Below, piece after piece: positions 7,049-64,000 of a stretch of 64,000 nucleotides of DNA (its first letter is position 1; each line of letters opens with the position of its first letter). The DNA is taken from NCBI GenBank assembly GCA_950295325.1, contig OX485806.1:42408001-42472000 (forward strand), in the 5' to 3' direction. Below the pieces are notes generated by a model. It was given only the letters and a program-made list of their open reading frames with translations. It made no database searches and had not been told where the DNA came from. Made by a program: the position numbers and the translations under genes. This stretch comes from Polytrichum commune. Taxonomy: Eukaryota > Streptophyta > Polytrichopsida > Polytrichales > Polytrichaceae.

Positions 7049-7116
7049 TGCAAGCCAAGGGATTGGAACCCCCAACCTTGGGCTTCCCACTTGGTGGTTC
7101 TAACCACCAAGTCAAC
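7049..7116 (-). other. tRNA-like segment (pseudo-tRNA or SINE head)
   Basis: Read on the minus strand, TGACTTGGTGGTTAGAAC resembles an A box and GGGGGTTCCAATCCC resembles a B box/T arm, spaced as in a tRNA. The B box departs from GGTTCGANTCC at a key position and I cannot fold a convincing acceptor stem, so this is at best a decayed tRNA or the head of a tRNA-derived SINE. Confidence 0.3.
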
Positions 7117-7156
7117 ACACTTTCTTGATATAAAGGGAGTGCTTTAAACCCTTTTA

Positions 7157-7613: not shown

Positions 7614-7639
7614 TATGTGAGGAACACTTCAAACCTATT

Positions 7640-11960: not shown

Positions 11961-12094
11961 GCAACACCGAACAGGGGAGTCGCAGCTTCGAGGACCCCAA
12001 CCAGGAGAGGATACCGAAGGAGAGTCTTGACCTGGACAATAGGAGCTGAACAAGCTGTTGTCTTCGAAGCTGTTTGCAAATCTGTCTAAATCAC

Positions 12095-12545
12095 AGGTAC
12101 GTCTATCGATTAGCCCGACATCTATAGTCCATATTTTAAAGGTTTGTTGTCTCAAAGTTGAGTTGATAGAAGTCATTAATTGAAAGGTGAAAGTCAATAA
12201 GAACCTATGGTCTTCAACCACATTATCTCTCACTCTTGAATCAGTACAAGTTGTTCCTCCAAAAATTGACATATAAACATTTGAAAATCGAAATCAGTAG
12301 AAAAAAAATTGTGTTGAATCATAGGCACTATGAATCGCAAAAGCGTTACTCATTAGGCAGGCATCTTAAGTTCATAATTTACAGTGTGTTGTCTTAAATC
12401 GAAAATTCAAGTGGAGATGATAAAAAACATGATCAAAGTTGAGTTTTTGATTTACTAAGAACATATTGTTTTAGACCAGAATCAACACAAGTTGTTGCTC
12501 CAAAACTTGAAACAGAAAAATCTAAAATTTGAGTTAATAGAAAGT
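12095..12545. repeat. Two diverged ~230 bp direct repeats
   Basis: The segment near 12100-12290 (TTAAAGGTTTGTTGTCTCAA ... AAGTTGTTCCTCCAAAAATT) recurs in diverged form at 12360-12530 (ACAGTGTGTTGTCTTAAATC ... AAGTTGTTGCTCCAAAACTT). No coding content is seen. The flank from 12546 to 13276 holds nothing further that I can support. Confidence 0.5.
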
Positions 12546-13284
12546 CTTAGAGGTTCTCACAAATCCAAAGTTGAGAGGCAATTAGTTGATAACTAGATGC
12601 ATTAATCACAACTTCAAAGTGGTAAGGCTAGTAAACAAAGATTGAGTTACTTAGACCAAGTTAATAAAATTGGATTAATTAGATATTTAAATTAAAGGGA
12701 GCCAAATGTACAACCTAAAACTCCAAAACAGGGGTTATTATAACGGATTGTTTCTCCTCACACGTGTATAGAATGTTTATAGTAGCCATTTATGGAAATG
12801 AATGTACGCACAATTTTTGTTGCTGAATGTTTTTCCTATCTACGGTTTGGATTTGTTTTTAGGAGCATGTTGTTTTTATGGTGCAAATTGCATAGTTATG
12901 CAAGAGTGCCGCAAATTCTCTATCCTTCCAAACAAATCGATGGCAAAAAAGAACATTTTTTGCACCTTACACAATTGCCATTTTATATAGAGGTAGATGA
13001 GTATTCATGACTTTCACTAGATTACCATATTGCTTTGCAATTTGAGGGGTATAATGAAAATTATTTTTTCAAATTATTCAAGAAAAATAGCATCTAGATT
13101 AAAAAATATGAATATTACCCTTGGAATATTAATAAAAAAAACTATTATTGTTTATTATTATTGAGTAAATTTTTTTTTTTTGAGGTTATTAAGGTTCATG
13201 TGGAGTTTACGGAAAAGGTGTTTCATCCTCAACTTGGATAATAATTGTTCTTCCTTTGGAATAATTGACAAACATTATTATCCC

Positions 13285-13530
13285 CTCGGGGGGTTCACTG
13301 GCAAAAATTGTAGAACAACGTGCGATAAAAAATAGGGTCCAATATATTCATTGTAGATAAATTTTATAAAAGATGTACATGTAAAATAGGGGATTTTTAA
13401 AATAATGAAACATGTTTACATGTAAAATACCATCACCTTATAATCTTTTCTGCAAGGTAAATAACCCCCCCAATAAATAGGTCCTGAGCGCACGTGTATG
13501 CAAAATATAAGAGGAAGTGAACCCCTTGAG
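13285..13530. mobile_element. MITE, CTCGGGG family, copy 1 (hAT-type target duplication)
   Basis: A 246 bp element with terminal inverted repeats CTCGGGGGGTTCACT (left) and CTCAAGGGGTTCACT (right, complemented), flanked by a perfect 8 bp duplication ATTATCCC (13277-13284 and 13531-13538). It shares an ACGTGCGA...ATAGGG core with the MITE at 18599-18945. Confidence 0.8.
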
Positions 13531-13919
13531 ATTATCCCCCATGTTACCTCTAGTAAATTATTTACTAAAATAATAAAATTTTATCTTGAAAATATCAAAG
13601 GACAAGCTCTTGTGAGGTCTATTAAAGTTGAATCATTCGATAAAAAAAACTAGATTATGATATAAGTAAAATAGCAAAGAAAATTGAAGAAAATTTTGCT
13701 AGGGTTACTACCATTTTTGTCGAAGCTGTTGAAAAATTCTCAAATTTAAAATAGCATTTGAAAATGAACTAAAGACGCTAGACATCATGGTGAGGAGAAC
13801 AAATTCCTCCTCAAAAGATGAAGTGGCCAAATGAATATATTTGACATTAAGGGAAGCTAATATGTGAGCCATAAGCGGTGAGTAATGAGTAATGATATTT
13901 GCCAAATCTAGTAATTAAT

Positions 13920-14888
13920 TATCGTAACCCTTGCTAAGCCCGTTAACAATCTTGCCCATTTTCATTTCTAGCAAAGGTTACGAGCACTAACCCTTCGCAT
14001 TCCGCCATGCTAATGGTTAGCTCCTCCTACCCCGGACCTTATAGTTCATAAGAGGGGAACCAACCCCCCTACTTTGCTTTCGGGACTCACCCCTTAATTG
14101 ATAACCAATTCTTAGATGTGGACTTCCATTCATGGAAGTCCAATCTTATGTTGATCATCGCATTGCCGGAGCAACACTATAACAACCCGAACCATACTAG
14201 GCAACTATGTCCTCACATTGGGCCCATGGAGGCCGTGCCGTTTGGCCTCGGGTGGGTGAGGCCACACCATCTCACCCATACAAGCCTCTAGGATTTTAGG
14301 TAGGGCCCCTACACCACCATCAAGAAACCTTTTTGTCTCTCTACCAAGAGTTGGGGCCAAGTAGACATTTTCCCTTAGCCAATGGGCCTAGAAGCCCCAG
14401 CAGCTTCAGACCATCATAACTTCCTTATGTGATCTCCGATGCTAACAAGCGACCACTCCATCAACACATACGCTTTACGTAGATGCTGATGGAATCCTCA
14501 CTTGTCCCATTTGGGAAAGTATTGAGGAAGTTATGCATGTTCAAACCTTAGCAGTCCCGGGAGCCACTCCCAGGCCACTGTTGTACCAGGGCGTTGTCCC
14601 GAGACAGTGGCCCCACTCAAATTGCCATATCTCCTAGCTCACACCTCCAATTGAGGTAATCTTAAGCATTCTAGAATTCTCACGCCGTAAGCTAGAAATA
14701 GCTGATAGCCTTATCCTCGTGCCTCCTAGTCTCCATGGGTGGGGGGCGTTCCCAACGCCCGGGGCCCTCACCCACACTAGGATCACTTGGGCCCTCTCAC
14801 CAACGGCACCACAAGTCCCGGGTGTCACATCGAGGTCCCCCTTGTGCCCATGATATTTTGGGCCCTCCTCATGAAGAGGTGCGTGACA
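13920..14888 (-). repeat. Solo LTR, family R1, copy d
   Basis: A 969 bp minus-strand copy. Its 5' end on that strand is TGTCACGCACC, near 14888, and its 3' end GGTTACGATA, near 13920. The 5 bp flanks TTAAT and ATAAT match at four positions. It has the same internal landmarks as copies a-c. Confidence 0.8.
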
Positions 14889-15129
14889 ATAATCATGGTT
14901 TAAGATACATACTTTAAAATTGGTTCTTAAAACTTTCAAATGTTTAATTATAAAATACTTGCATTATGATAGAACAAGACTGAAGGAAGCTATTACCATG
15001 GATATTTTCAAGAACGATGAATACATTGTTTTTTATATATATAACAATCCACACCAATACATGTCACTTATTGAAATTCTCAAACATGTGGTTGAACATA
15101 ACACTCGGAATATTGCCCACATTCTATCA

Positions 15130-21594: not shown

Positions 21595-22200
21595 TTATAT
21601 GTGCTTCTCATTCAACATATTTATGTCCGGTTGTTCATGTTGAATGACCAACTCCATATAACAACCACTAGGAATGAATGACATGATATTTAGTTTTGGC
21701 TTCATTAATTGTTTTTGCGTACTTGCATAGATATTTGTGTTGAATTTGCAACAATGCCTTGATATAGTTTTACGTAACCTTATCCAAATTTTGCGACATT
21801 GGAAAAGGCAAGTGTGTTGGCCACCCATTATTGGTAGATTTGGATCACCTTCATCATATATCTTCTTGACATCAATGCAATTGGCATGAGCATTGTCCAC
21901 CATGAAACCCTTGAAATTCACTTCCAACAATCCATTCTCTGCCATGATATAATTCAATTTTTTTCGAACACAATTGAGTTGTAACATCTTCATATTGCAT
22001 GTCATAACACGCAAAAATCAATACCTTATAATATTTGGTATTGTAAACATAGTATGCTAGTGTGGTCCAATTTTTTAGACGTTTGACAAATATTATCCAT
22101 GAATTGTTTATATCTCCTCCAACATTCATATGCTTAACAAAATCCACACCACTCCATGGAAGGTCCACTGACATTTTAAAAACAAATACTTTGTTTTTTG
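21595..22200 (-). pseudogene. MULE-like transposase core fragment
   Basis: Two overlapping minus-strand frames give GGDINNSWIIF, then VNFKGFMVDNAHANC with a D-x-A-x-A pattern, then a GDPNLP ... TCLFQC block. This resembles the central DDE region of a family of SWIM-bearing MULE-like proteins common in TE-rich plant genomes. A frameshift separates the two parts. It is probably the same family as 15130-16350. The assignment is from remembered motif patterns only. Confidence 0.42.
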
Positions 22201-34361: not shown

Positions 34362-37300
34362 ATGGAGATTGCCTCCACAAATAATGTCCTGCATACGGTG
34401 AACGCACATATTGTCAACTCTCATCTTGAATCCATTCCAGAGTCAGATGACGAACTCACTTATTTTTCTCTTGCAACATTTCGTGCAAAGCAGGCTGACC
34501 TATTTTCGTTGAGAGAGAAAGTTCAGAATCCCACTCCAGGCGCATTTGCCATGGATGACTTGGTGTGGACCAGCCACGTTACGCACGGCCAGGGTTTACA
34601 CAAAACATCTATGCTAGCAGTCATATTGTGGGATAGACTTCAGGATTTCATTCAAGGCGAGCAACAACATCCTCATTTTCCCTGCAAATTCACAAAGGAA
34701 ATCGTGTGTGTTAACCTGCCAAATTCCTTGCGAACACCTCGTGCACACAGTCCGGCACTTGTTTTGAGGTTTGACATACTGCTTACTCTGAAATTGGACC
34801 CAAATTCACTATTCTTCATGTTCTGCTTGTGATAATGTGACAATAATGCAATTACCTTTAATGTTTATGGGTTTATACAATGAAGGTTTAGGGAGAACAC
34901 TGTACTTACGGATCAGTATGGTGCATAAATTTAATGTCCTTCACCTCCTGGATATTGCTTTTACTGAAGATACTTATGCAGCCAAACATCTTCAAAGTGT
35001 TGTGCAATGCCCTGAGCATGTGTGTTCTGCATAGAACATTACAGGCAATTGAGTTCACATGAACCAGTTCCAACATATACCAGTATACCAATCCACATCT
35101 ATTATCATTAATGTTATTCTTCCCTGGCCATTCCAGATACAGGTGCAACTTTGGCCCTGAAGATAAGTCTTCTATAGTGGCACATGATATGAAAGCTCTA
35201 CTGAAATCAACCCAAAAAAAAAGAAACAGAAGATGTTGCAAAAAAAAAAAAAGGAAGAAGGTCGTACCGGAATACGAGTCTTTCCCTATGACCAAATCAA
35301 CTCGTCCAAAGGCAACGCGCATTGGCAAGACAATAGCAGGCAACTCCGTGAAGCGAGGGTGCCAAACATTGCTTTGTTGCGAAGAAGCCATACCTGGACC
35401 ACTCGTTGTGTTTGCTCATTTACGAACATGCAAAACACTTGAATGTCGGTGGTGAACACTGTCATGGCACCATGGTCAGTGGCTTTAGATATGCACTTGG
35501 TTTAGGAATATCTGAGGAAATGAAACTAAATATCGTTCAAATGCATGCCTATGGGTTATCACCTGCCCAAATCATGCAGCAGCACACCAAAGAGGTTTGG
35601 GAGTTGGCCGCGTCCAACGGGTTGGTCACCCGCGACACATTCTTGTTGCCGTCGGATGTTATGAACATTTGCCGTAAGAGGGCGGAAGAACTGTGGGAGA
35701 AACATCCATCTGACCCCGTCAACGTCCGTATGTGGGCAAATGAGAATCCATAAAACTTGTTGTACTACCAAGAACACTCTCTTATGGACTTCAATTCACA
35801 ATCACAAGATGACTCACCTTTCACCATAGGCATTCAAACTGAATGGCAACTAGAGATGATGGCAAAATTCGGCCACAACAACGCTCTATCCATTGACGCC
35901 ACATTTGGCACCAACCAGACTCGGGTGCGATTGAAATCTATGTCCTTCATCCTTGAACATTTGTTCTTCACTGTCATTGACTCATGCTAATATGTTCACC
36001 TCGTGTATCCTGTCATTCCGTCTGTGAATTATTGTTTCATCCTGCTTGGCCCCTATTCTAACTATGCTAGTGCAAGTTATCTGCAGTACCCATTCTATAC
36101 TGTCATGGTGTTCGACGATTGGAGAAATGGCATACCTGTTGTTTTCTTCGTCATATCGCGGACACGTGAACAAGACCTTCGCCCAGTTCTCCTGGCTCTA
36201 CATCACAAGGTTCAAGGCATTAAATCAGATTGGAATCCATCTTCTATTATCATTGACAATGCACAGGCAGAAATTAATACTTTGGGGTAAGCTATTTGCA
36301 CATGTTCTTCCCACATGTTTAATTGTATATTCACTAAATATTTGTGTCCTTCATAGGCAGAAAACACTCATACATTGTCATGCAAATAGTATTGGTGGAA
36401 CACAACAAATTTATATAGTGACATACTTGTTCCTCACTTCTTGTCCTGCATCTCACACCATCTTCTGTTCCATGTTGCCTGCGCAGCATGGTGTGGCCGG
36501 ATGCCAAAAAAAATTTGTGTCTATGGCACGTGAGGAAGGTATGGGCAGAGATTGCAGTGAAAAAAATATCAAATGCTAAAGAACGCACCAATATTCTCCA
36601 AATGCTTGGTGACATAATGTATGGAAAAGGTTGCAAAGTTGATGATCCTGTGGACTGGGCCCTGCACCAACTCGACAAGATATCATTGTCTTGTCCACAA
36701 GCAACCTCCTTTATGCGGTACATGAATGAAGTTTGGCGACCAAAGACCACAATGTGGTGTGTTGGAGCCCGACGGATACCGCATGCAGGACAGAACACAA
36801 ATGCTGCTATTGAGTCCTACCATTCCAATTTGAAGAGTGTTCTGCATTCTGCAAAGAAGAGGTTTGTGGGCAGGCGTATGGACTGGCTTATCTATCATCT
36901 AACATGTGATGTTTTGACTCACTATTGGTACATTGTCCAATGCAAAGCATATGGATTCATACACAACAAGAAACAGGAGGGCATTGTTGCATCGGCAATT
37001 ATAAGAGCGAACGACATACCTGACATGAACGTCTTGATTTGCATGGACGAAGATGTAGCATATGTTGGGTCTGTAAACAACTGCCCGAAGGTATGGACCA
37101 TCAAATGTCCGGACTCCGAATGGGCACAATGCGACTGCCCCGTCGCCATGGAAGGCATGATTTGCAAACATACTGTCAAAGTATTCAAGATACTCCACCC
37201 TGGTGTTGACGATGGTGTCATAGTTCGTGAGGCGGGTACAAAACATGGAACACAACGCTCCACTCCAATGGCACATGCCTATTCGAGGATGTCGCAACAA

Positions 37301-37648
37301 ACTACTCGACTCCATGTTCCGTCTGACGTGGGGAACCCTTTCGTCGTCGAGCCTGTGGTGCAAGACAATGTTATTAATATGGACGTTGATGAAGAACACA
37401 CTACTTTACCTCATCTAGACTCTATCTTTGTTGAATCAGAGCACCCCTTACAGTTCTCATCCCAGTCTACACATGTAGAGTCTTGCACCCCCCTGCCCCT
37501 TTCCCAAGAGAGTTCTTCACCTCGAGCTCCGGCCACAACCGCAGACGACATATTCTCCTCGATTTCACGGAAGGCAGAGCAACATCCAGTTCTTCAAGAT
37601 CACTTGATTGCCGGCCTTAAGGAAATTCGTGGCAAGCAAGAGTAGCTC
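34362..37648 (+). CDS. MULE transposase with SWIM zinc finger (four exons, lesions)
   Basis: ATG at 34362. Exon 1 runs to 34768 (donor AG|GTTTGAC); exon 2 from 35137 to 35924, exon 3 36087-36286, exon 4 36487-37648, all with GT-AG borders and matching phases (2, 0, 2). Exon 1 holds the N-terminal VWTSHVTHGQGLHKTSML region; the DDE core shows D in ALSIDATFGTNQT, D in SIIIDNAQAE and E in NAAIESYHSNLKS. The SWIM finger is CDCPVAMEGMICKH near 37130, followed by a Ser/Pro-rich tail. Exon 2 carries one frameshift (35350-35400) and one in-frame TAA (35751-35753), so this copy is probably inactive unless those are sequence errors. Exons 3-4 are clean. It would act in the nucleus on the element's inverted ends. 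Confidence 0.82.
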
Positions 37649-39079: not shown

Positions 39080-42000
39080 CTAGATGACATCAATCAATGC
39101 ATTCCTAATGACTTTCCTCGTACGTAATGCCTCTGTCCTGCTATAATTCAATGCAAATCCCTGCAAGAAGATGTACACCGTCAAAACATGTATTGAAGAA
39201 CATAACAAGACTCCTCGTTAAGCGATACACACAACTAAGCGTAGTCTCTATGACTATGCTTCAATATAATTAGAGGTCTATGTACGATTTACCTCACACA
39301 GTGTGTGGGGTCTATCTCTCACGGTCTTTGTGTATTCCATAATGTTCTTCAACATGTAGAACCCGCAGGCCCAACCTGAATTTTGTTGGGGCACATTAGC
39401 TTGTATCCAGACATGCGATGAGTGTACCCCAACCCACATGTCAGTGTCATCTGTAAAGCCTCTCCATGCAGCCCACAACTTCGCGAGGCTCACACAAAAT
39501 TCTGTGTGGGAGTGGAACCCTGCGTCGACCAGGGAATCAAAATGATAAAACCCAAGCTCCCCTACTACGTAGAGGCTCCAGTGTTTTCCACATGTGTAAG
39601 GAATTAATAGAGTGTTAAATTCTTGCGAAGGGAGAGCCCCATATTTGTCGTGTATGAACCCTACATAGCCCTCTAAACTGTCATGTCCTTCCTCTGTCAA
39701 ATGCGCACGGAGTAGAGGACCAAGATAAGGACAAGTTACATAACACTTTAAATTCTCAACCTGGGGATTGAGCCACAACCCAATCCATTCCATCATGTAG
39801 TTGCTTAACTCCCCATAATTTTCAATCAATGGTTTCAAATCTTCCTCCCACTGCAGACTCAAATTATCACCACGATACGTAAATTCAAAGCTTTGGATTT
39901 TCTTCCTACCTGCGTCAGCAATGATGGTGTTCACAAGTTCTTCAAGTCTGCAGAACATAAATGTACATGTCAGACTCTATTGCCAACATTTATGGACATG
40001 TAGACTTTTATGTTCTGCAGTATGAATATATTAGAATACTCACCGTCCATCAGATTTCTGCGTAGTCCTTCCGAGCACGTCATCCATGGTTGTGTCCCGC
40101 TCAGGATGGGGAGGACAAGACTTGCCTTTCACAGTTGCAGCACGCTCCACGACCCCTGGTAGAACTGTACATGTGGTGGGAGTTGAAGGGGAGCCATCCT
40201 TAGTGTTAGTCAACTCCTCACATACGTTCTTCACCACTGTATATGCGTCGTGGAACAGTGACCCCTAGTCTTCAAGCACATCTGCGGTGTTCTGCTCTTG
40301 TAGAGAACCTGGAGGGCTCATGTCGTCAATGATAATCCTGCGTGCAGGCGACACCATTGTCCTGTCACCCGGAGGCCCTATGGCAAGCGTAAGGGAAGGG
40401 GTCCTGGAAAACCACGGTCCCTTTCATAAACCCTTAGTAAGAGGTATAGCGTTGATTGGGTTACCATATTGGAAGTTTCACGATAACTCACATGGTGAAA
40501 AGGGTGTGGGACAAGACACGAACCTCATTGGGGAGTTCTGCAAATCCGATCTCAGTTGCGTTAGGGAAAGATCCTGCGTGCTAATGCGGTCGACGCCTTC
40601 AAGGTCGCAATGTATTGGGATTGCATCAAGACTCCCGAAGCTCATGGCTTCCTGTGTAAAACCCACGAATCCCATTGTTGGTTCAGGTGGTTCTCCTAGC
40701 GCCATCGCCACCTCCTCTCCCAACAACGCTCTCGTGCAGTGTACATCTTGTGCAATATCATCCCTTGCCTCTTCCTCTCCCAATCCACAATTGAATAGAC
40801 GCAATTGTGTTGACCTTACATTTTGCAAGCCCTGTACCATCTCTCCCACCCGCAACTGCACGCAATGGCTCTTCTTATGCAGATGTTCCCACGTCCACAT
40901 CTTCCCGGAAAATTAATGTAGAACATAAAACCTGCCTCACACAACATACAATTATGTTTGTACAGCATAATGAAGGCATAAAGGCAATAGATATATTATG
41001 AAAAACACACAGGCTTGGATGGACGGCATGTTTGGAAGAGAAAATATATCAGACAACACACATGAAGAACACCTGAAGAACAAGAGTAAAACATTTATGT
41101 CATGTCCTTACCTCTTCCAACTTCGCATTTCGATCGTGGGTGACGTCCCTATTGTACCACATGTCAGCAAGCTCGTCTGTACGGTGCATGCGAACCATGT
41201 CTGCAATGGCTTGTTGCGCAATCCGGCCTATGAATGACTCAATCTTCTCCATCACTGCCATTTGCCTTGATGGCTCGTATCCAAGCAAACCTGCAACGTC
41301 TGAGAATAACTGTTCAAAGCTATCTGCAGCTTTCTGCATGCCAGGAAAAACGTTCCATCCCATTAATGGGAGACTGTGAGCAACGCTTGACAAGGCGACT
41401 GTCAAGTTCGAGTCATGAGCAACATTCAACATGTACTGCTGACCCACACCTCTAGTTGGGTGAGATAGTGGACGTCTGTGCCACTCTAGAGTCCTAACCA
41501 AGTACAATAAGGCTCTCAATATATGGGGGCATTCTTGTTCCAATGAAAGAAGCTTTCTCCTTGTGTTCTCCAGAAGAACAATAGACATCTCCAGCCACTC
41601 ACCATCTGTGTGGTCCCAAGGTCCGTCCCTAAAATTTATAAGAGGCCACTTTCTAAATATCTGGTACAATGGGGACCATTTCCACTTGGACTCCTCCTCC
41701 TTCTCTTTCTCTGTGCGGTCGAATTTCAGCAGTTTGGCTTCGACATGATTTCTACAAAATCCTGGAAGTTGATTTTTGCGGCAGCAACCTTGTCATCATA
41801 CTCCCTTTGTTGGATGCGGTAATGAAGATAATCCTTAATATTCTTCAGTTCTTCATACACTTGGACATCTGAATTGGTCTTAAAACACCTAACCTGCGCT
41901 TTGACTTTATCCAAAAATTCGCTGTGATCTCCAGGAGTCTTTGTGTTCTGCATTATAAAGGCAACAATGTCCATTATGCATGGCTTTCACAAATGATTGG

Positions 42001-51407: not shown

Positions 51408-51669
51408 GGAAATCATCCATGAAACTCGTACCCATGAGGAATTTGAGAGACTAGGGACCCCCACAAATGAAGTCATAGAGTTCAAAACCATTAGACGTGC
51501 ATTTCCGAGAGTACCACAAATATGTTATCCAAATGAGAGGCCGGATGCGGTACCCAGCAACCACCTCCACTTCACGCAAATTCCAAGGCAAGAAAAAATG
51601 GACCCCACCACCGGACTTTCCGAGGGCTTCCACATCACCATCCGTTTCGAGGGAAACTCAAGTATGTGA

Positions 51670-52198
51670 GCATAGCTCGGAGAGCGGAGAGCAGAGAGCG
51701 GAGATTTTTAAATTTGTTGGAATATTTTAGGGGAAATCGTGCCTATTTCCGTGGAATTTAGTGATAGTTTGTCTTCAATTTGTCGAAAAAGCCACCCCAT
51801 TCCCGTGTAAATAATAACCGAACCTTGTTCGGTGAACCAACCGAACCTATAGGCGTGGAAGATAGTGTTTGTTATCAAACATCTTATAGTCTAGGTTTCG
51901 AATACGTTTATATTAAATTAGGGCTTACGTCATCAATTGAACATATGAGTTAAGCCTTAACACAAACATTCAAACCATTCAAAGTCACTCACAACCTTAG
52001 CATCTCTCAAGTACAACTAAAGTAGACAACCTTCAAAGTATACTCAACCCGTCCACCCAACCTATCTAGAGAATTGAAATCAAACACCAACCAACTTCAA
52101 TAAGAGATTGAATGAGGTTTGCAATAGCCACATAAAAATTGAAGAAATAAACTTATAAAGTAAAATCAATACAAACAAAATGGAGGTCCGAGGCGTAG
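51670..52198. other. Spacer between two convergent genes
   Basis: No feature that I can support; likely 3' ends of both neighbours. Confidence 0.45.
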
Positions 52199-55100
52199 TC
52201 AAGAACTAGGACTACCATGTCTATCACTATCCTCACCCTCCTCGGCCTCTATGTCTAGAAAATCCTCTATTAGTTTGTTGAAAGGTCGGATGCGACTAGG
52301 AGGTGGAGACGGAGCTTCCGCTAAAAGATTGGCAAGACTAACAGCATAGGTTGGGAGCTCGAACGTCTTGGAAGGACTCGAACTCATACATGCGTTCTCC
52401 CTTGGCGCTCTGAACCAATAAGCAATAAGATTAGAAACAACATGACACACAAAGATGGGAAAATGACAAGAACGTAAATATGAGAAAACATAGAAATAAA
52501 ACTTACGCACAAAGAAAACCGAATGCGCGTTTGGTCATCTTCTTAGGAGGATCAAACATAGAGGTGGACGGTGTGGCATTTGAGCGAGAAGTCGCGAAGG
52601 TTGGTTTTCACGCATGGGGAGTAGTATCGCATTAAAAATCACTGGGTCACTCTCAAGGGCCACAATATGCCGCTCAATGGAACGACACGCTGTAATCGAA
52701 CCACCTACACCACATTGCCAGTCCATAATAACATCATTATTATCGGTGAGAGTAGCAAAAAGGATAGAAAAAAAAACTTGATGCTTTTCGCGAGCACCTC
52801 TCCAGGGTATCCCATCACTGCGCATTGTCTGGCTCTTCTCATCGGTGAAAGCATTCAACCATCCATCTCGCTGGAGGTAGTAACCATACTCCTGGGTGGC
52901 CTCCAGTCGCACTTTCAAAACGGAGTTAGCACGAACAAGAACCTTGATATTGAATTTGCGAGTCTGAAAAAATGACAACGATTTCATAAGAATCGGAATA
53001 AGTAAAATGAAAAACAAAACAAAAATGGACTAGGAGATGGATAGTTGCTTACCACTCCAGAGGGGTCCACCGGAGATTGGAGGTCCAAATCAACCATTCC
53101 GAACCAATCTTCGGCGACGTAGAAGTCGTAAGTGTGTGCCCAATCGAAAACCATCCTAGAAACACTTGCACTTGCACAATGGATAAGGATAAGGACGCCA
53201 TGATCATAGAGGTTAGATTTTGCAAATGCAAAAAAAACACTCATAGTAAGAATCATGGAGCTTGTTCCATTCAGGAACATCCGTGGAGATGTTGGGCACC
53301 GGCAAATTTTCGGGAATGTCCGCGAAGAGTAAATCGAGGCCCTTGTGAAATGTAGAGGAGGTGTTCACACGGGAGCAACCTTCCCCGGCCTGCAATGAAA
53401 AATTCATAAGAAAAAATAAAGAAGGAAAAACAAAAGCAAACCAAACGGAAAGGAGTCTGATGAATGCCAAAAGAAAACATACAAACCTTGGCAATGAACT
53501 CTTGAATGCGCGTATATGCCGGGAGGGGACCTCCTGCAAGGTCGGAATCGAGCATGAGTTGTACCATGTCCACATTTTTTATGAGGGCAAGCGTGGTAGG
53601 GGAATCCGAAGAGGTGGCACTCGTATCCAATAGGGCGGCCTTCCTCTTGCGAGGCAAGGAGAGTAGAGAAGTGCCACTGTGTGAAGGAGTAGCAATAGTT
53701 TGTGGACGAGATACGGAGGGGGTGATAGAGGGGGCAACTGATGGAGCAACTGATGGAGCAACGGAGGGAGTGCTAGGTGGACTCTGTGAAAGGGTGGGTG
53801 GTTGAACAAGGGTCTTTGAGGTAGACCGAGTTGATTGAGTGCCAGTATTCCTAGCTTTTCCCTTTCCCTTTGGTGCCTTGGGCGGTGGAGGAGGAAGCTC
53901 AACAATGTCGGGCTCCTCAAAGGGGACAAAGGTCACCTCGGGAGCACTACTCACAAGGCTGGAAAAAAGAGGCTTCTCTACCTCAGGCACAAATCCTCCA
54001 GAACAATCCAAGTACCATCCCCCAGCCTGCAAGTGAGAGTCCGAAAACTTGGAAACTTGCACGGGCGTATACACACAAAGATCGGAGTTGACATTGACCC
54101 AATCTACAAGGAAGGTTGGCAAGCACGAAGAAGGCAAAGCATTCTTCACAACGAGCTCACGGTGGATGAACCTGTAAAATGAAGAACATCATAAACAAAA
54201 ACGGTGGCGGGATAGAAATGAAACAAAAACTATATGAACTAAAAGAAAACTCAAAATATTACCGATAAGCGACGCGTTTGATTGCTATGGGGCCTTCCTT
54301 AAAATCCATGAGATCAAGGCCTTTGATAAATTTCAAATCTCCCTTGTCGTCAAAATAATCAGAAATGCCTTGTCCCAAAGATTCAGCCTCCAATGCTCAA
54401 CATAATTGGCCGGTTGATAAATATCCTCCGCGGAATTCCAATCGATTTCAACGGAACACTCATTTTCAAATGAAGTTATCTCATCCTCAACCCCCTTCTC
54501 CAACTATGACAACAAAGAAAATAGTAAGGGGATGGTACTTGATAACATACTCCACTCTAACTTGAACCATATATCAAAAACAAAATTCAATTTTGACAAC
54601 ATAGACCTCTAACATGGCCCCTTAAGACATTAGAAATCGGAACTTAGCTTATTAACTAGAAATCTGAAACCTTAACCTCGCCACTTATTAGGCTGAAAAT
54701 CTGAATTTAGCTTATCAACTACAAATCTGAAACCTCAAACATGGCCACTTATTAGGCTCATAATCTGAACCTTGCTTATCAACTACAAATCTGAAACCAC
54801 TAACATGGCCACTTATTAGGCTCATAATCTGAACCTTGCTTATCAACTACAAATCTGAAACCGCAAACATGGCCACTTATTTCCCTCTTAATCTGAACCT
54901 AGCTTATCAAGTACAAATCTGAAACCTTTAACTTGGCCACTTATTAGGCTCATAATCTGAACCTTGCTTATCAACTAAAAATCTGAAACCTCTAACTTGG
55001 TCAATTCTTAGGCTCATAATCTGAACCTAGCTTATTAACTACTAATCTGAAACCACTAACATGGCCACTTATTAGGCTCATAATCAAAACCTTGCTTATC

Positions 55101-58100
55101 AAATACAAAGCTGAAACCTTACACATGGCCCACTAAAACCCCACTATCCCCACCCTCTCGGAATCGAGAGGGTCCCCCCCCGGTCCAAATATTTAGTGGA
55201 CCTCAAAACTAGACTGAAAATCTGGAATTAGATTACATACTAGAAATCTGAACCCTCTAACATGGCCACATATTAGGCTAATAATCTGAACCTAGCTCAT
55301 TAACTACAAATCTAATACCTTAACATGGCCCACTAAAACCCCACTTACCCCACCCTCTCGGAAACGATAAGCCCCCCCCTGTCCAAATATTTTTTTGACC
55401 TCAAAATTAGACTGAAAATCTGGAATTAGCTTACATACTAGAAATCTGAACCCTCTAACATGGCCACTTATTTCCCTCATAATCTGAACCTTGCTTATCA
55501 ACTACAAATCTGAAACCTCTAACATGGCCACTTATTAGGCTCATCATCTGAACCTAGCTTATTAGCTACTAATCTGAAACCACTAACATGGCCACTTATT
55601 AGGCTCATAATCAAAACCTTGCTTATCAAATACAAAGCTGAAACCTTACACATGGCCCACTAAAACCCCACTTACCCCACCCTCTCGGAATCGAGAAGGT
55701 CCCCTCCCCCTGTCCAAATATTTAGTGGACCTCAAAACTAGACTGAAAATCTGGAATTAGCTTACACACTAGAAATCTGAACCCTCTAACATGGCCACAT
55801 ATTAGGCTCAAAATCTGAACCTAGCTCATTAACTACTAATCTGAAACCACTAATTTGGCCACTTATTAGGCTCATAATCCGAACCTTGCTTATCAACTAC
55901 AAATCTGAAACCACAAACATGGCCACTTATTTCCGTCATAATCTGAACCTAGCTTATCAACTACAAATCTGAAACCTCTAACTTGGCCACTTATTAGGCT
56001 CATAATCTGAACCTTGCTTATCAACTACAAATCTGAAACCTCAAACTGGCCACTTATGAGACTCATAATCTGAACCTTGCTTATCAACTAGAAGTTTGAA
56101 ACCTCAAACATGGCCACTTATACGACTCATAATCATAACTTAGCTTATATTCTAGAAAATTAAAACCTTAACCTGGCCACTTATTAGGTTGAAAATATGA
56201 ACTTAGCTTATTAACTAGAAATCTGATACATCAACCTGGCCACTTATTCGACTCATCATCTAAATTTAGCTTATCTAATTCAAATCCAAAACCTCAACAT
56301 GGCCCACTAATACCCCACTATCCCCTTGAAATCCGAAACCTTGGCATGACCCACTCGAATCCCACATGTAGAATGGAAAGGAAGAAACGGAGTCAAAATA
56401 CTGAGGATGCACCTGAGCCCAGAAAGAAGCTTTGTTGAGCCAGTTGTCGAGGACTTTCTCCCTAAGAGGGAGATCGGAGGGAAATCTATTATTATCCTTG
56501 ACCTCAGGAGGAGAGTTCCACCAACGTAGCCACTTGGCCTTGAAGTGGGAATCTACATGTGCGGTGGCCACCTTTTGAAGTTTCTCAATTGTCATATCTG
56601 TGACCAGGAAAGTGGAGAAATGACGGTCAATCTGCCACATAGAAGAAAGATAAGTAAAATAAAGATAAAACAAGCACGGCAAAATTCATAGGAGGATGAA
56701 AAACTAAACCAAAAAACAAAGATAGGAGAGACACCTCGTTGAAGAAATCATCACCGTTGTCCTTGTGGGCAACGGAAATGAACTTCTCAAAGTTCCAAGA
56801 ACGAATGGTTTTGATCAACCTATCTTGGGCTTTTGTCATAGCATTCCAAATATCGGCAGCAGTTCTCTGAGCCTCCGGAGTAGCCTCACGATATAACCTT
56901 GCCGCGGTATCAGCTGCGTTGGATATCTCCCTCTGAAACAAACAAAAATAAGGATAAGAAGCGCACATAGACGTGGGAGAAGGATGGGAGTGGAAAATGT
57001 ACACAAAATTTACCTTGTATAAGAACTTGACGAAGACATCTAATGTCAAGGGATACCAAGTAGGACTCTTCTCCATCTTGGACTCACACATCTTGTAGTC
57101 CGAAACGGAAGGGAGGTCTTTGAACTCCTCTAGCCTCATCTTTCCAAACGTGCGAATGCGAAGTAACTTGGCGGGGAGGTTGTCCTTAACATGGTCATGC
57201 TCCGTGGACCTAGACAAATAAAATGTTAGAGGAAAAAATGCGAACAAACAAAAGAAAGGATCAACAACATTAAATGTTGAACTCACCAGTTGATGTCATT
57301 CATAGCATTAAGGAAGAGAGCGGTGCAATTTCTTGCATCCACCACAATACAATCAGCCCATATATGCCAATTTTTGTCCAACGGGTGATGATTGTTGATG
57401 TGCCTCCACCAAGCTGTCAATCGATGGTTCCCTTCCCACACGAAGAACATTTTGCCAACAAAGTAAGCAAGGTCGGAGTCTCTTTGGAGTATGGCATCAA
57501 ACTCTGCATTGGCCTCCTGCCCTATTGGACTCCAGGAGGACTTGATGTCATCGGAAAGATCAAGAGGCTCATCGAGGTTGTTGTATGCTGAGACGTACAT
57601 AGCTCGGTCACCATCACGATACCCCATCACAAACTCATTCTCCAAACGAGAAACATCAACGTCGTTGATTGGCCAAACAAGAGGAAGAGTCTGCAACCGA
57701 CACAATGGAATTGAGAAACGAGACTTCCCTAGAGGCTTGAATCGAACCCGCTGAATCACGGTGTTGGAGTCTTGTTTTTGCGATCTACGAATCGTTAACT
57801 CTGCTTCAGCTGGATTCAACTCAGCAAGAGGTTTTATGCAGTCGGGTACAGCCGGAACATCAATCTACAACATAAGAGAAGCAAAGCATAAGAAAAAAAC
57901 TCTAAACCCAGAATGTGAATGAAGCATTGATACAATACAAGAACACCAGTATCATATGTATGAATCAAACGCCTCTTCTTGTGAGATGTCATCCAAAGCC
58001 GCATGGCTAGCCTCAGGAGGCGACAATATAACAACCCCATCCGCCATGTATTGCACCCGTGCTACAGGAAGAGCCAAAGACTCCGATGCCTGCATGCACA

Positions 58101-61100
58101 AAATACACCTTAAGACACTAGAAAACACAACAAAGCATAGTCTTTGCAAAATTAGAAACCCTCCAACCTGCCCCTGTAATCGTACATGACCCACCTTGTC
58201 GATTCCAAGAAAAATCCCCTTATTCACTATATCTCCAAATCAAAATCCACTATTGACAAGAAAGAACTCAACTTGGGCCCCTCACACCCACCCTTTGGTT
58301 TCCGAGAGGGTCTAAACCTTGGACTCATAATCTGATCTTAACGTATATACTAGAAATCTGAACCCTCTAACATGGCCACATATTACGCTCAAAATCTGGA
58401 CCTAGCTCATTAACAACAAATCTGAAACCACTAACATGGCCACTTATTAGGCTCATAATCAAAACCTTGCTTATCAAATACAAAGCTGAAACCCTACACA
58501 TGGCCCACTAAGACCCCACTATCCCCACCCTCTCAGAATCGAGAGGGTCCCCCCCCCTTGGCCAAATATTTAATGGACCTCAAAAGTAGACTGAAAATCT
58601 GGAATTAGCTTACATACTAGAAATCTGAACCCTCTAACATGGCCACATATTAGGCTCAAAATCTGAACCTAGCTCATTAACTACAAATCTGATACCTTAA
58701 CATGGCCCACTAAAACCCCACTTACCCCACCCTCTCGGAAACGAGAGCCCCCCCCCTTGTCCAAATATTTAGTGGACCTCAAAACTAGACTGAAAATCTG
58801 ATCTTAACGTATATACTAGAAATCTGAACCCTCTAACATGGCCACATATTAGGCTCAAAATCTGAACCTAGCTCATTAACTACAAATCTGAAACCACTAA
58901 CATGGCCACTTATTAGGCTCATAATCAAAACCTTGCTTATCAAATACAAAGCTGAAACCTTATACATGGCCCACTAAAACCCCACTATCCCCACCCTCTC
59001 GGAATCGAGAGGGTCCCCCCCCCTGTCCAAATATTTAGTGGACCTCAAAACTAGACTGAAAATCTAGAATAAACTTACATACTAGAAATCTAAACCCTCA
59101 AAGTGGCCATATATTAGGCTAATAATCTGAACCTAGCTCATTAACTACAAATCTGATACCTTAACATGGCCCACTAAAACACCACTTACCCCACCCTCTC
59201 GGAAACGAGAGGCCTTTCCCCCTTGTCCAAATATTTAGTCAACCTCAAAATTAGACTGAAAATATGGAATTAGCTTACATATTAGAAATTTGAACCCTCT
59301 AACATGGCCACATATTAGGCTAATAATCTGAACCTAGCTCATTAACTACAAATCAGATACCTTAACATGGCCCACTAAAACCCCACTTACCCAACCCTCT
59401 CGGAAACGAGAGGCCCCCCCCTGTCCAAATATTTTTTTGACCTCAAAATTAGACTGAAAATTTGGAATTAGCTTACATACTAGAAATCTGAACCCTCTAA
59501 CATGGCCACATATTAGGCTCAAAATCTGAACCTAGCTTATCAACTACAAATCTGAAACCTCTCACTTGGCCACTTATTAGGCTCATAATCTGAACCTAGC
59601 TCATTAACTACAAATCTGAAACCACTAACATGGCCACTTATTAGGCTCATAATCAAAACCTTGCTTATCAAATACAAAGCTGAAACCTTACACATGGCCC
59701 GCTAAAACCCCACTTACCCCACCCTCTCGGAATCGAGAGGGTCCCCCCCCTGTCCAAATATTTATTGGACCTCAAAATTAGATTGAAAATATGGAATTAG
59801 CTTACATACTAGAAATCTGAACCCTCTAACATGGCCACATATTAGGCTCAAAATCTGAACCTAGTTCATTAAATACAAATCTGATACCTTAACATGGCGC
59901 ACTAAAACCCCACTTGCCCCACCCTCTCGGAAACGAGAGGCCCCCCCCACCTTGTCCAAATATTTAGTGGACCTCAAAACTAGATTGAAAATCTGGAATT
60001 AGCTTACACACTAGAAATCTGAACCCTCTAACATGGCCACATATTAGGCTCAAAATCTGAACCTAGCTCATTAACTACAAATATGAAACCACTAACATGG
60101 CCACTTATTAGGCTCATAATCAAAACCTTGCTTATCAAATACAGAGCTGAAACCTTACACATGGCCCACTAAGACTCCACTATCCCCACTCTCTCGGAAT
60201 CGAGAGGGTCCCCCCCCCTGTCCAAATATTTATTGGACCTCAAAACTAGACTGAAAATTTGGAATTAGATTACATACTAGAAATCTGAACCCTCTAACAT
60301 GGCCACAGATTAGGCTCAAAATCTGAACCTAGCTTATCAACTACAAATCTGAAACCTCTCACTTGGCCACTTATTAGGCTCATAATTTGAACCTAACTCA
60401 TTAACTACAAATCTGAAACCACTAACATGGCCACTTATTAGGCTCATAATCAAAACCTTGCTTATCAAATACAAAACTGAAACCTTACACATGGCCCACT
60501 AAAACCCCACTATCCCCGCCCTCTCGGAATCGAGAGGGTCCCCCCCCTGTCCAAATATTTATTGGACCTCAAAACTAGACTGAAAATCTGGAATTAGCTT
60601 ACACACTAGAAATTTGAACCCTCTAACTTGGCCACAGATTAGGCTCGAAATCTGAACCTAGCTTATCAAATACAAATCTGAAACCTCTCACTTGGCCACT
60701 TATTAGGCTCATAATCTGAACCTTGCTTATCAACTACAAATCTGAAACCTCTAACATGGCCATTTATTAGGCTCATAATCTGAACCTTGCTTATCAACTA
60801 CAAATCTGAAACCGCAAACATGGCCACTTATTTAAACAAAATGCAGGCTTAAACATCAAACCTGTCTATGCCGAACTTCTCCGAACTATGGGATTGTGGA
60901 TGCTCCTTCCACATTCGACACTACACCGCAAGGTTGTCGGCAAGGGTTTCCTCCTCTCTTCTCTCTCCGAACGACAAACTAGGTTAGCCACAATGGTTCC
61001 TTGGTGTCGGCTAGGGTGGACTACCTCCATCTATTATCCATACTAGAAATTTGAACCCTCTAACATGGCCACATATTAGGCTCAAAATTTGAACCTAGCT

Positions 61101-63198
61101 TATCAACTACAAATCTGAAACCTCTCACTTGGCCACTTATTAGGCTCATAATCTGAACCTAGCTCATTAACTACAAATCTGAAACCACTAACATGGCCAC
61201 TTATTAGGCTCATAATCAAAACCTTGCTTATCAAATACAAAGCTGAAACCTCTCACTTGGCCACTTATTAGGCTCATAATCAAAACCTTGCTTATCAAAT
61301 ACAAAGCTGAAACCTTACACATGGCCCGCTAAAACCCCACTTACCCCACCCTCTCGGAATCGAGAGGGTCCCCCCCCTGTCCAAATATTTAGTGGACCTC
61401 AAAATAAGACTGAAAATATGGAATTAGCTTACATACTAGAAATTTGAACCCTCTAACATGGCCACATATTAGGCTCAAAATCTGAACCTAGTTCATTAAC
61501 TACAAATTTGATACCTTAACATGGCCCAATAAAACACCACTTGCCCCACCCCCTCGGAAACGAGAGCCCCCCCCCTTGTCCAAATATTTAGTGGACCTCA
61601 AAATTAGACTGAAAATATGGAATTAGATTACATACTAGAAATTTGAACCCTCTAACATGGCCACATATTAGGCTCAAAATCTGAACCTAGCTCATTAACT
61701 ACAAATCTGAAACCACTAACATGGCCACTTATTAGGCTCATAATCAAAACCTTGCTTATCAAATACAAAGCTGAAACCTTACACATGGCCCACTGAAACC
61801 CCACTATCCCCACCCTCTCGGAATCGAGAGCGTCCCCCCCCCCTTGGCCAAACATTTAGTGGACCTCAAAACTAGACTAAAAATCTGGAATTAGATTACA
61901 TACTAGAAATCTGAACCCTCTAACATGGCCACAGATTAGGCTCATAATCTGAACCTTGCTTATCAACTACAAATCTGAAACCTCTAACATGGCCACTTAT
62001 TAGGCTCATAATCTGAACCTTGCTTATCAACTACAAATCTGAAACCTCTAACTTGGCCACTTATTAGGCTCATAATCTGAACCTTGCTTATCAACTACAA
62101 CTCTGAAACCGCAAACATGGCCACTTCTTTTCCTCATAATCTGAACCTAGCTTATCAACTACAAATCTGAAACCTCTAACTTGGCCACTTATTAGGCTCA
62201 TAATCTGAACCTTGCTTATCAACTACAAATCTGAAACCGCAAACTGGCCACTTATGAAACTCATAATCTGAACCTTGCTTATCAACTAGAAGTCTGAAAC
62301 CTCAAACATGGCCACTTATTTAAACAAAATGCAGGCTTAAACATCAAACCTGTCTATGCCGAACTTCTCCGAACTATGGGATTGTGGATGCTCCTTCCAC
62401 ATTCCACACTACACCGCAAGGTTGTCGGCAAGGGTTTCCTCCTCTCTTCTCTCTCCGAACGACAAACTAGGTTAGCCGCAATGGTTCCTTGGTGTCGGCT
62501 AGGGTGGACTACCTCCATCTATTTTCGAACTCTTCTATTTCCTAGGTACCTTGCCCCAAAATATAATGGGCCGAAAGCCTAGTTGCTATGGGCCATGTTT
62601 GGGAGGTGGCGGCCCCGCACAACTTCGTGCTTAGCCAATACCCTATTCGTGGTGCATAATTGTTGACCCTCTCGTTTCCGAGAGGGTTCGGTTGTATATC
62701 CCCATCTAACCAACTTTAACAAAAAAATAGCTTTCAACATTCAACGTGTTGGTCATGAAGAATCACATTACATAACTCAATATCAAATTCCATCTTGTAA
62801 ATTACCTAAATGTATATCTGAGCCTAGTGCATAATACGCTAAACCAAACTTACTGTGCCCATTGAGTCCTCCTTTGTCTCCTCCTCAGATTCGCTTGAAT
62901 CCGAATTGCTTCGATGCTCGCTCTCCCCCATCGATTGTTCTTGTGATCCACCCTTCTCCCGTTCTTCCTCTATCCGTTCCAGTTCCTCGTTCCTGCTAGA
63001 TGTCCCTGTCTCTGCCTCTCCGCCCGTCTTGCTCAAATCTGTTGGTTGCTCACTTCCTTGTGTACAGGATTGCTCCTTCTTCCTCAGTTCTCTCCGTTTC
63101 CTTTGTTTTGAATTGCTAAAACTTGTGCCTCCCTTTCTTTTCTTTCTCTTTCTTCCAGGATCGGCTGTGGAGACTTGAGTATTTCCTGGTTCCTTCAT
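52199..63198 (-). CDS. ParB-like / DNA amino-methyltransferase fusion gene, ~12 exons
   Basis: Exons on the minus strand, with GT-AG borders and mostly matching phases: 63198-62854, 58218-58168, 58089-~57950, 57864-57287, 57209-57012, 56932-56735, 56631-56413, 54503-54263, 54171-53487, 53389-53053, 52963-52507, 52409-52199 (stop). Order of parts: basic/acidic nuclear-type N-terminus, ParB-like domain, helical middle, Pro/Ser-rich linker with APSVAPSV repeats, beta-class methyltransferase, acidic tail (DFLDIEAEEGEDSD). Lesions or errors: a TGA at the end of exon 3 whose junction I could not resolve, shifts near 54400 and 52610, and an 8-T run at 53230-53237 where the frame needs 7. ParB-methyltransferase pairs are known from phages and bacteria; a role in adenine or cytosine N-methylation of DNA is inferred from motifs only. 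Satellite DNA fills introns 1 and 7. Confidence 0.7.
52507..52963 (-). CDS. Methyltransferase exon with motifs X and I
   Basis: Acceptor TTTTCAG, donor TGC|GTAAGT. It reads TRKFNIKVLVRANSVLKVRL, then IPWRGAREKHQVFFSIL (motif X position, like H-P-x-x-K-P...L), then NNDVIMDWQCGVGGSITACR (motif I, the S-adenosylmethionine loop, usual form D-x-F-x-G-x-G-T/S) and RHIVALESDPVIF (the acidic end of the second strand). This is the C-terminal half of beta-class N4/N6 DNA methyltransferases. After MRENQP the frame shifts (near 52610) to one reading SMFDPPKKMTKRAF before the donor. Confidence 0.72.
53053..53389 (-). CDS. Methyltransferase exon with motif IV region
   Basis: Acceptor TTGCAG, donor GTG|GTAAGC; joins the next exon in phase 0. 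It reads GLDLLFADIPENLPVPNIST, which sits where the catalytic motif IV block (usual D-L-I-x-x-D-P-P-Y/W) is expected, then HGVLILIHCASASVSRMVF, the strand of motif V/VI type, and YDFYVAEDWFGMV. Motif IV preceding motif I is the beta-class order. The catalytic tetrapeptide reads D-I-P-E instead of D-P-P-Y/W/F at 53320-53309. An 8-T run at 53230-53237 breaks the frame by one base. Confidence 0.65.
54600..56335. repeat. ~64 bp satellite array 1 (inside intron 7 of the fusion gene)
   Basis: The monomer is about 64 bp: AACATGGCCACTTATTAGGC TCATAATCTGAACCTTGCTT ATCAACTACAAATCTGAAAC CTCT. It is mixed with a higher-order module containing CCCACTAAAACCCCACTTAC, then the hairpin CCCTCTCGGAATCGAGAGGG, a C run, and TCCAAATATTTAGTGGACCT. 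Three hairpin copies (55153, 55353, 55680). Confidence 0.9.
57287..57864 (-). CDS. ParB-like domain exon
   Basis: Acceptor TTGTAG, donor ACTG|GTGAGT, splitting a Trp codon that is completed by the next exon. It begins IDVPAVPDCIKPLAELNPAE and contains DLAYFVGKMFFVWEGNHRLT followed by AWWRHIN and WHIWADCIVVDAR. E-G-N-H-R-L-x-A matches the ParB/sulfiredoxin-fold signature (G-x-x-R/H-R-x-x-A) that binds nucleotide in ParB-like proteins; strand-helix order around it also fits. The frame is fully open over 192 codons. Family membership is by motif only. Confidence 0.62.
58290..62318. repeat. ~64 bp satellite array 2 (inside intron 1 of the fusion gene)
   Basis: The same satellite as at 54600-56335. 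Twelve higher-order hairpin modules start near 58528, 58730, 58994, 59194, 59396, 59722, 59922, 60189, 60519, 61349, 61549 and 61813. Monomer variants alternate between ...CTTGCTTATCAACTACAAATCTG and ...CTAGCTCATTAACTACAAATCTG. The array is interrupted once by a 205 bp non-satellite segment (60831-61035). Confidence 0.9.
60831..61035. repeat. 205 bp unique segment duplicated within the satellite
   Basis: TTTAAACAAAATGCAGGCTT to CTACCTCCATCTATT is nearly identical to 62319-62523. The second copy joins the non-satellite sequence leading to exon 1 of the fusion gene, so it is probably the original and this one was carried into the array by amplification or unequal exchange. Confidence 0.85.
62319..62523. 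repeat. 205 bp segment at the satellite edge (source copy)
   Basis: Partner of 60831-61035. Downstream at about 62661-62680 a single hairpin, CCCTCTCGTTTCCGAGAGGG, recurs outside the array in the opposite loop orientation, as it does at 58300-58315. Confidence 0.85.
62854..63198 (-). CDS. First exon of the fusion gene: charged, nuclear-type N-terminus
   Basis: The first ATG in frame is at 63198 (MKEPGNTQVSTADPGRKRKK). Basic clusters RKRKKRKGG and KQRKRRELRKK are likely nuclear localisation signals. A Ser/Glu-rich acidic region (SDSSESEEETKEDS) follows. The exon ends ACA|GTAAGTTTGG, a strong donor, phase 0, matching the exon beginning at 58218. Linking it to the downstream exons is an inference from strand, phase and donor; the intron would be 4.6 kb of satellite. 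Confidence 0.55.
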
Positions 63199-63521: not shown

Positions 63522-64000
63522 ATGGCTTCCAGCTCAATGGCCGAACTTCGTTCCAATGCCAACGATGTCCTTATTCTCTTCCCCATTGGTGCACAGGGTA
63601 TTGTTGTTGTCTCGGAGCTTCATCTTAGCATTAGGTTCTCTCTTCAAGTTAATACAATATGGGTAGATCGTGAGATCTTCAATGATACTGGATTGCTCGT
63701 GCATACATTCCATGAGCCCTCCAAGGTAACTGACAATGGCAATGTAGTGTGGGAGCTTGGCGCAGGAAAGTAAAGGGTTTGGGGCTGGCCAGATTCTCAG
63801 ATGGGAGTGTCAACAGAACTCCATGCTCCTCTTCGATCTTCCACTGCTGACTTTAGCACACCTCTGGTAGTAAGTGTCAAGACCGAGCCTGACATAGACA
63901 ACGTTGTAGACTTGTCTGATTCTTCGACTGAAGATGTATCTATGAGGAAGGCTGATGTTCATGATTCCCCTCCTTTGTTTCCCTCTGATTCCTTTGTAAC
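63522..64000 (+). CDS. Unidentified gene, 5' end, divergent to the fusion gene (runs off the window)
   Basis: ATG at 63522 (MASSSMAELRSNANDVLILF) opens a frame of 83 codons to a TAA at 63771-63773. The same phase then stays open to the window end with ordered composition (VSVKTEPDIDNVVDLSDSST), so either an intron spans the stop (GGAAA|GTAAAG is a possible donor) or it is a nonsense change. V-K-T-E-P fits the SUMO-attachment consensus and N-V-V-D-L-S-D-S resembles a SUMO-interacting motif. No catalytic domain is visible. The 320 bp between 63198 and 63522 would be a shared divergent promoter. Confidence 0.45.

Follow-up and report, generated by a model that had tools for sequence, protein, structure and literature searches.

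A 16,807-bp DNA transposon carrying two divergently arranged genes was identified in Polytrichum commune (assembly GCA_950295325.1, contig OX485806.1), overlapping the right-hand part of a 64,000-nucleotide stretch read on the forward strand (positions 42,408,001 to 42,472,000; hereafter the window). One of the two genes, on the minus strand of 52199-63198, encodes a ParB/sulfiredoxin-fold domain followed by a beta-class (motif order IV-X-I) DNA-methyltransferase-like domain, and is very probably an accessory gene of the transposon that acts on the element itself; the other is a presumed transposase gene. The copy in the window is a broken, decaying one. Its features are given below in window coordinates, with positions on the whole contig prefixed C4.

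51641-51650, unstranded: left copy of the 10-bp target-site duplication, TCCGTTTCGA (right copy at C4:42476458-42476467, beyond the window)
51651-51692, plus strand: left terminus and terminal inverted repeat, GGGAAACTCAAGTATGTGAGC..., with 22 of 30 loci ending at 51651 ± 2 and an inverted-repeat match to the far end of locus L054
52199-52409, minus strand: exon 11 (E11; the other exons are numbered likewise), acidic C-terminal tail and stop codon, from splicing and copy comparison
52507-52963, minus strand: exon 10, motif X-like RGAREKH and motif I-like DWQCGVGGS, with a frame break near the 3' end in the window copy
53053-53389, minus strand: exon 9, motif IV-like DIPEN (DLLFADIPEN), with a frame break in the window copy
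53487-54171, minus strand: exon 8, GGWYLDC block and Pro/Ser-rich linker
54263-54503, minus strand: exon 7, with a frame break in the window copy
54605-56304, unstranded: minisatellite array of 64-bp repeats within the intron that separates exons 6 and 7
56413-56631, minus strand: exon 6, with a similar stretch in a sister element
56735-56932, minus strand: exon 5
57014-57209, minus strand: exon 4, its intron position kept in relative P0116, with a similar stretch in the sister element
57287-57864, minus strand: exon 3, ParB/sulfiredoxin-like domain with WEGNHRLTAW
57971-58089, minus strand: candidate exon 2, with likeness to relative P0003 upstream of its ParB domain
58322-62320, unstranded: minisatellite array with the same 64-bp unit as at 54605-56304, containing recurrent palindromes CCTCTCGGAAWCGAGAGG
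62854-63198, minus strand: presumed exon 1, N-terminal region that is basic at first and then acidic, placed by position
63522-64000, plus strand: start of the divergent transposase-like gene, whose frames run on past the window to about C4:42475041

The element spans 51651-68457 in coordinates extended beyond the window, with its right end at C4:42476457 (4.5 kb past the window) and terminal inverted repeats of ~42 bp, and the transposon unit extends past the interval 52199-63198 on both sides. Alignment of 30 loci to the window revealed that the homology of 22 stops at 51651 ± 2 bases; of the rest, L014 corresponds to the window itself, L018 stops at 51634 and L029 at 51678, and for L040-L043 the homology breaks off earlier or at the edge of the locus. 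Twenty-two of the 24 ends printed start with GGGAAA(C/T)T at the terminus or within two bases of it, with L018 starting 20 bases further in and L029 lacking the motif. The 10-bp repeat TCCGTTTCGA flanks the element, and the flanks read as a single open frame once joined. When the joined 160-base flanks were compared with the same genome, 37 of the 40 matches listed (72 candidates) crossed the junction, five of them covering at least bases 1-158 at 94-97%, with the two halves of the window's own site matching as bases 1-80 and 71-160 and the L023 site as bases 1-80. This L023 locus (C4:43191791-43195150) lies 730 kb away and shares the element and its flank at ~95%, apparently through a duplication that took in the insertion and the DNA around it. 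A second copy (L016, L054) is flanked by a 10-bp repeat of its own, CGTGCGGAAC; its right end and the left end of the window copy form a clear inverted repeat, scoring 24.0 where 3000 random pairs reached no more than 10.0. The inverted repeat is read from this far end, the window copy's own right end being degraded (score 7.0 against its left end, not above random). Target-site duplications were found in two of the four copies tried; the right end of L015 was not found in stretch L052, and L017/L053 lies in repeated leucine-rich-repeat-like units. A further element with the same GGGAAACTCAAGTATGTGAGC terminus begins 2.0 kb past the right end of the first (L044 from 6580 and L045; C4:42478480 onward); it contains ParB-like (WDGNHRLQAW), exon-8-like and exon-9-like frames, together with what looks by eye like a gypsy-type insertion.

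Both genes are highly repeated in the same genome (407,808,757 bases in 64 contigs, seven of them of 42-78 Mb). Exon 10 has at least 227 matches (1430 first-look candidates, 150 scored), of which the 150 listed lie on all seven large contigs; C4 holds 48 of these, many at 42-58 Mb, at a density of 0.81 per Mb, compared with 0.21-0.38 on the other six. The transposase-like gene, whose first candidate ATG on the plus strand is at 63522, has at least 104 matches to its frame of 398 amino acids (aa) at 80-100% identity (1961 candidates, 104 scored), many of them in longer open frames (e.g. 766 aa). A listed E10 match lies within 50 kb of 84 of these 104 (78 divergent) and within 20 kb of 63 (60 divergent), whereas 1000 random placements gave 1.6 on average, and never more than 6, within 20 kb. 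The two genes are therefore co-mobile parts of one element. An initial annotation of the window, made from its letters alone, had proposed that a phage- or bacterium-like DNA-modifying protein was either domesticated or mobilised in a plant nuclear genome and had recommended a search for homologues and copy number; the counts obtained for both genes, the common terminus and the target-site duplication bear out mobilisation, while domestication does not fit a decaying transposon copy.

We infer that the divergent gene is the transposase gene. Two of its frames match no Pfam transposase family at E ≤ 1 and no PDB entry, and a CxC...CxH stretch is recognisable by eye at its end. Mutator-like elements (MULEs) have target-site duplications of about 9-11 bp, and the 10-bp duplications of two copies and the CxC...CxH stretch resemble this group, whereas the two frames do not match the MULE transposase profile; because no transposase profile matched, we do not assign the element to any superfamily. 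Elsewhere in the window, a minus-strand frame at 21595-22017 (GFMVDNAHAN...DEGDPNLPIMGG) looks similar, by eye, to the element's transposase-like protein (GFMADSAQAN...GSRDPKVPMEG), and a Ulp1-type peptidase at 39281-39976 on the minus strand (PF02902, E 2.5e-5) lies near a large plus-strand frame at 36422-37642 with a CxC...CxH stretch by eye, forming another transposon-like pair.

The ParB-methyltransferase gene was reconstructed by reading and splicing the minus strand of 52199-63198, with exons set by AG/GT borders. E3 to E11 (57864-52199) are nine consecutive exons of one gene, in phase once the three frame breaks of the window copy (in E7, E9 and E10) are set aside, and five of their eight introns fall between codons with three splitting one codon. 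The roughly 12 minus-strand exons with GT-AG borders described initially are thus real, with the count corrected to 11, E10 running to 52507 and the frame breaks having gone unnoticed. The two upstream exons are less certain: E2 (58089-57971) is a candidate that resembles the stretch immediately upstream of the ParB domain in P0003, and the presumed E1 (63198-62854), whose ATG lies 323 bp from the first ATG of the divergent gene, is tied to the remaining exons only by position, with a 4-kb minisatellite intervening. Exon-wise searches at E ≤ 1 returned 139 relatives among 182 candidates for E3 and 107 among 211 for E9+E10, which, together with the E10 matches in the same genome, argues that the exons are more than chance. 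The 1040-aa spliced core searched at full length matched none of 5657 candidates, probably because the database consists of exon-sized frames. Two separate introns of the gene contain expansions of a single 64-bp minisatellite. Several relatives (e.g. P0156, P0168, P0181, P0183, P0198 and P0201) have an intron-like stretch within motif I, between DWQCGVG and GS of E10, which is absent from the window's subfamily and from P0124, P0127 and P0128.

The E3 region was assigned to the ParB/sulfiredoxin fold by a fold search with a predicted model. In the ParB/sulfiredoxin superfamily a role is ascribed to a G-x-x-R motif, which here corresponds to E-G-N-H-R: across 34 aligned ParB-exon relatives N146 and H147 are invariant, E144 and G145 are kept in at least 90% and R in 29, with the sister element reading DGNHP, without the R. 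The ddrB-ParB profile matched one of the 34 relatives (E 0.19), and a profile of the ParB exon gave only chance-level matches to PDB sequences. The domain would bind or clamp element DNA. Nine strict palindromes occur in the element, eight of them CCTCTCGGAAWCGAGAGG inside the two minisatellite arrays and one CCTCTCGTTTCCGAGAGG between the second array and E1, and these could be ParB sites; the pattern recurs in 5 of the 30 loci L014-L043 (which cover only ~1.5 kb each side of E10), all from a subfamily whose E10 is 83-84% like that of the window. Twelve ParB-exon relatives (P0054, P0056-P0059, P0061, P0065, P0073, P0095, P0108, P0119 and P0120) have longest contigs of 95-470 kb, unlike any E9+E10 match, and perhaps represent another host or a ParB-only branch.

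The methyltransferase-like blocks follow the beta-class order, with the motif IV-like DLLFADIPEN in E9 and the X-like RGAREKH and then the I-like DWQCGVGGS in E10, as noted initially together with the ParB-type motif of E3. Matches of E9+E10 to methyltransferases are weak but one-sided. They include a PHROG methyltransferase (E 0.002 for the window and 1.8e-4 at best; five of the seven members of A3) and a PDB adenine-specific DNA methyltransferase (E 0.039 with the single sequence, 0.0033 with a profile), and proteins annotated as methylases make up all 20 phage matches listed (the best 20 of 25) and 16 of the 20 plasmid matches listed (the best 20 of 31). Profile-profile comparison used seven phage and plasmid methyltransferases chosen from the query's own matches, which makes the result for E10 (95.4%, score 55.6 against at most 20.2 in 40 shuffles) not independent and that for E9 (23.0 against at most 17.8 in 40 shuffles, with DIPEN aligned on DPPYG) less selected; in an earlier run one of 60 shuffles, an outlier whose cause is not proven, scored 132.67, above the 68.1 of the real pair. 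The predicted model of this domain was poor (predicted local distance difference test value of 49) and was not used. The strongest link is a 577-aa sister frame in the same genome, L013, which exceeds the cut-off of the methyltransferase profile PF01555 (32.4 bits against 26.7, residues 309-524) and aligns with a composite of the family by BLASTP (3e-15, 26% over 223 aa), its D-I-P-Y set on D-I-P-E. L012, nearly identical to L013 and also of 577 aa, reads D-I-P-D (DIPDG, against DIPYG in L013). Strong PF01555 matches were also obtained for L009, L010 and L011, on contigs C10 and C12 (47 and 61 kb), which are possibly bacterial contamination.

Against the two-domain assignment stand the results of the Pfam searches: PF02195 and its relatives gave no match at E ≤ 10 to the window's own exons, the window lineage does not reach the PF01555 cut-off, and no Pfam profile recognises the window exons. 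The profile and structure checks proposed at the outset gave a ParB fold, no Pfam match for the window exons and a methyltransferase model too poor to interpret, and the proposed fusion of a ParB-like with a beta-class methyltransferase-like domain is upheld by the fold search, the profile comparisons and the sister element above the PF01555 cut-off.

The catalytic tetrad of motif IV has diverged. A loose pattern applied to 227 database proteins (matches of E3 and of E9+E10) returned 55 strings, one of them an artefact, and misses variants with another residue before the D; D-[I/V]-P-E-N was found in 39 of the 54 readable motifs, and Y, F or W at the fourth place in none, so the canonical D/S/N-P-P-Y/F/W is not found in the window lineage. 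Among the 17 copies in the same genome with full-length E9+E10, 14 read D-I-P-E, two D-I-P-K and one D-I-S-E. Because plasmid and phage enzymes can carry D-I-P-Y or D-L-P-Y, the second residue is not unusual and the fourth is. The aromatic residue of the tetrad has a base-stacking role.

Comparison of 21 copies (L014-L034) from the end of E7 to E11 showed that the window's E9 and E10 lengths occur in none of the 20 others and its E7 length in one (L026), and five copies (L015, L016, L017, L024 and L025) are open with the expected splice sites; introns are kept in the copies aligned. The ratio of non-synonymous to synonymous substitution rates (dN/dS), calculated for 11 stop-free copies of the 17 with full-length E9+E10 (the pairs are not independent), was 0.95 within subfamilies (27 close pairs) and 0.26 between them (28 pairs, mean dS 0.157), indicating constraint on the source lineages and roughly neutral decay of the individual copies. 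The layout is repeated in the sister element around L013, with a divergent transposase-like frame, ParB exons and methyltransferase-like exons. In a search of 137 frames, its ParB exons match the profile at E 1.7e-21 and 1.4e-10; the joined alignment contains an in-frame stop, and E4-, E5/E6-, E7-E10- and E11-like stretches are recognisable at 22-33% identity. Since the layout is kept at this distance, the module is old. Two matches in the window fit a plant, one to a copia-type reverse transcriptase (PF07727, E 8.8e-18) and a weak one, below the cut-off, to a 'plant transposon protein' (PF20167, E 7e-4). More speculatively, a set of seven large chromosomes would agree with some mosses; in an algal host the case would stand nearer to the published ones. 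A cluster of long inverted and direct repeats (70-85%) occupies positions 1-15000. No relatives were found in viral contigs, by single sequence or alignment, or in prokaryote genome contigs, with the ParB alignment, in scans that reach close relatives only; within that reach they lend no support to a viral or contaminant origin.

We suggest that the transposase-like gene, running rightward, and the ParB-methyltransferase gene, running leftward from the presumed E1, would both start from one 323-bp region, and that the element itself is the most likely target of the accessory protein, with the ParB-like domain binding or clamping element DNA. The methyltransferase-like domain, predicted to bind S-adenosylmethionine (SAM), may then place an amino-methyl mark (N6-methyladenine, 6mA, or N4-methylcytosine, 4mC) on that DNA or, with its tetrad turned to D-[I/V]-P-E, may serve as a non-catalytic SAM- and DNA-binding partner; protection from silencing or recognition by the transposase would be the outcome. 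Because the tetrad has lost its aromatic residue, we rank a non-catalytic role ahead of catalysis. A non-catalytic SAM- or DNA-binding module, with ParB targeting the element for anti-silencing or transposase assembly, has close to an even chance of being correct: it would account for the loss of that residue together with purifying selection, whereas unusual tetrads can still be active and the binding is predicted only. An active 6mA/4mC methyltransferase marking the element's own DNA, as proposed for algal elements in the available text of PMC12477816, has somewhat poorer than even prospects. The motif X and I blocks kept in most of the copies and relatives compared, the purifying selection between subfamilies and the D-I-P-Y of L013 are consistent with activity; the D-[I/V]-P-E of the window lineage, with no aromatic residue in any readable motif, and the D-I-P-D of L013's near-identical partner argue against it. 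A more specific scheme, which we regard as unlikely, would have the ParB clamp and a methyltransferase domain lacking its catalytic aromatic residue, under purifying selection, load on parS-like palindromes (CCTCTCGGAAWCGAGAGG and one variant) to mark or shield the element, a partitioning-style anti-silencing in a plant DNA transposon.

Two other explanations place the function outside the element or deny it one. Spliceosomal introns and basic and acidic tails give the gene a nuclear look, as expected of a host gene domesticated from a bacterial ParB-methylase with retrocopies or duplicates dispersed in the genome. This is very hard to reconcile, and thus highly improbable, with the dispersal of at least 227 E10 matches, introns kept in the aligned copies, a common terminus with differing flanks, a target-site duplication with uninterrupted paralogous sites, within-subfamily dN/dS near 1 and a frame-broken window copy. 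Plant DNA transposons are well known to capture genes, and a captured passenger without function for the element would be one more such case; we consider this improbable, given the same divergent two-gene layout at 22-33% identity in the sister element and the dN/dS of 0.26 between subfamilies.

An accessory role of the kind proposed here has a parallel in the VANC anti-silencing proteins of Arabidopsis VANDAL elements, transposon-coded accessory proteins that act on the chromatin of their own element (compared by description only), and to our knowledge VANC proteins have no ParB or methyltransferase domain. The closest systems in print are algal. In the available text of PMC12477816, which cites Iyer et al. 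2011 and Petroll et al. 2025, ParB-methyltransferase accessory proteins are described in brown, green and red algal transposons, among them the brown-algal Sola1-1_Ec32, whose protein of about 1100 aa combines a ParB-like with an N4mC/N6mA-type methyltransferase domain and is encoded, in a large DNA transposon, on the other strand from the transposase. The same arrangement is found here, with the identity of the transposase inferred, in an element of 16.8 kb rather than 21.5 kb (PMC12477816); compared with the algal proteins, taken by description only, the present case differs in having a host that is probably a plant, no fewer than 227 exon matches, target-site duplication of 10 bp, a transposase not assigned to a superfamily and D-[I/V]-P-E as motif IV. 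Bacterial and phage ParB-methylases, such as Bce_0392, for which the accessible part of PMC5512222 describes nicking activity, and a Lactobacillus phage T280 protein (ParB_N and N6_N4_Mtase, 392 aa, DPPY), share the order of ParB and then motifs IV, X and I; relative to the phage protein, the gene described here has introns, about 500 extra residues between the domains and a tetrad that has lost its aromatic residue. The bdelloid rotifer N4CMT (PMC8885841) is likewise a beta-class amino-methyltransferase domain in a eukaryotic nuclear gene, differing in its SPPY, its chromodomain and its activity shown in E. coli, and the available text of that paper does not mention ParB. The initial view that plants are not known to carry such a fusion thus needs qualifying for algal transposons and, for land plants, agrees with the open-licence literature searched, which yielded no land-plant report of the combination and nothing closer for a land plant, a moss or Mutator-like elements. 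What is new is a probable plant host, a transposon with 10-bp duplications and no superfamily assigned to it, and conservation without the canonical catalytic motif.

A eukaryotic transposon that brings along a DNA-modifying protein of bacterial type could place epigenetic marks independently of the host's 5-methylcytosine system, or evade that system. Whether the protein methylates, and what its ParB domain binds, can be tested directly, since the family is high in copy number, includes copies open over all exons checked, has deep subfamilies and is accompanied in the same genome by a sister element with a canonical-like motif. For the disputed 6mA and 4mC signals in plants it provides either a specific enzyme to consider or a clear negative.
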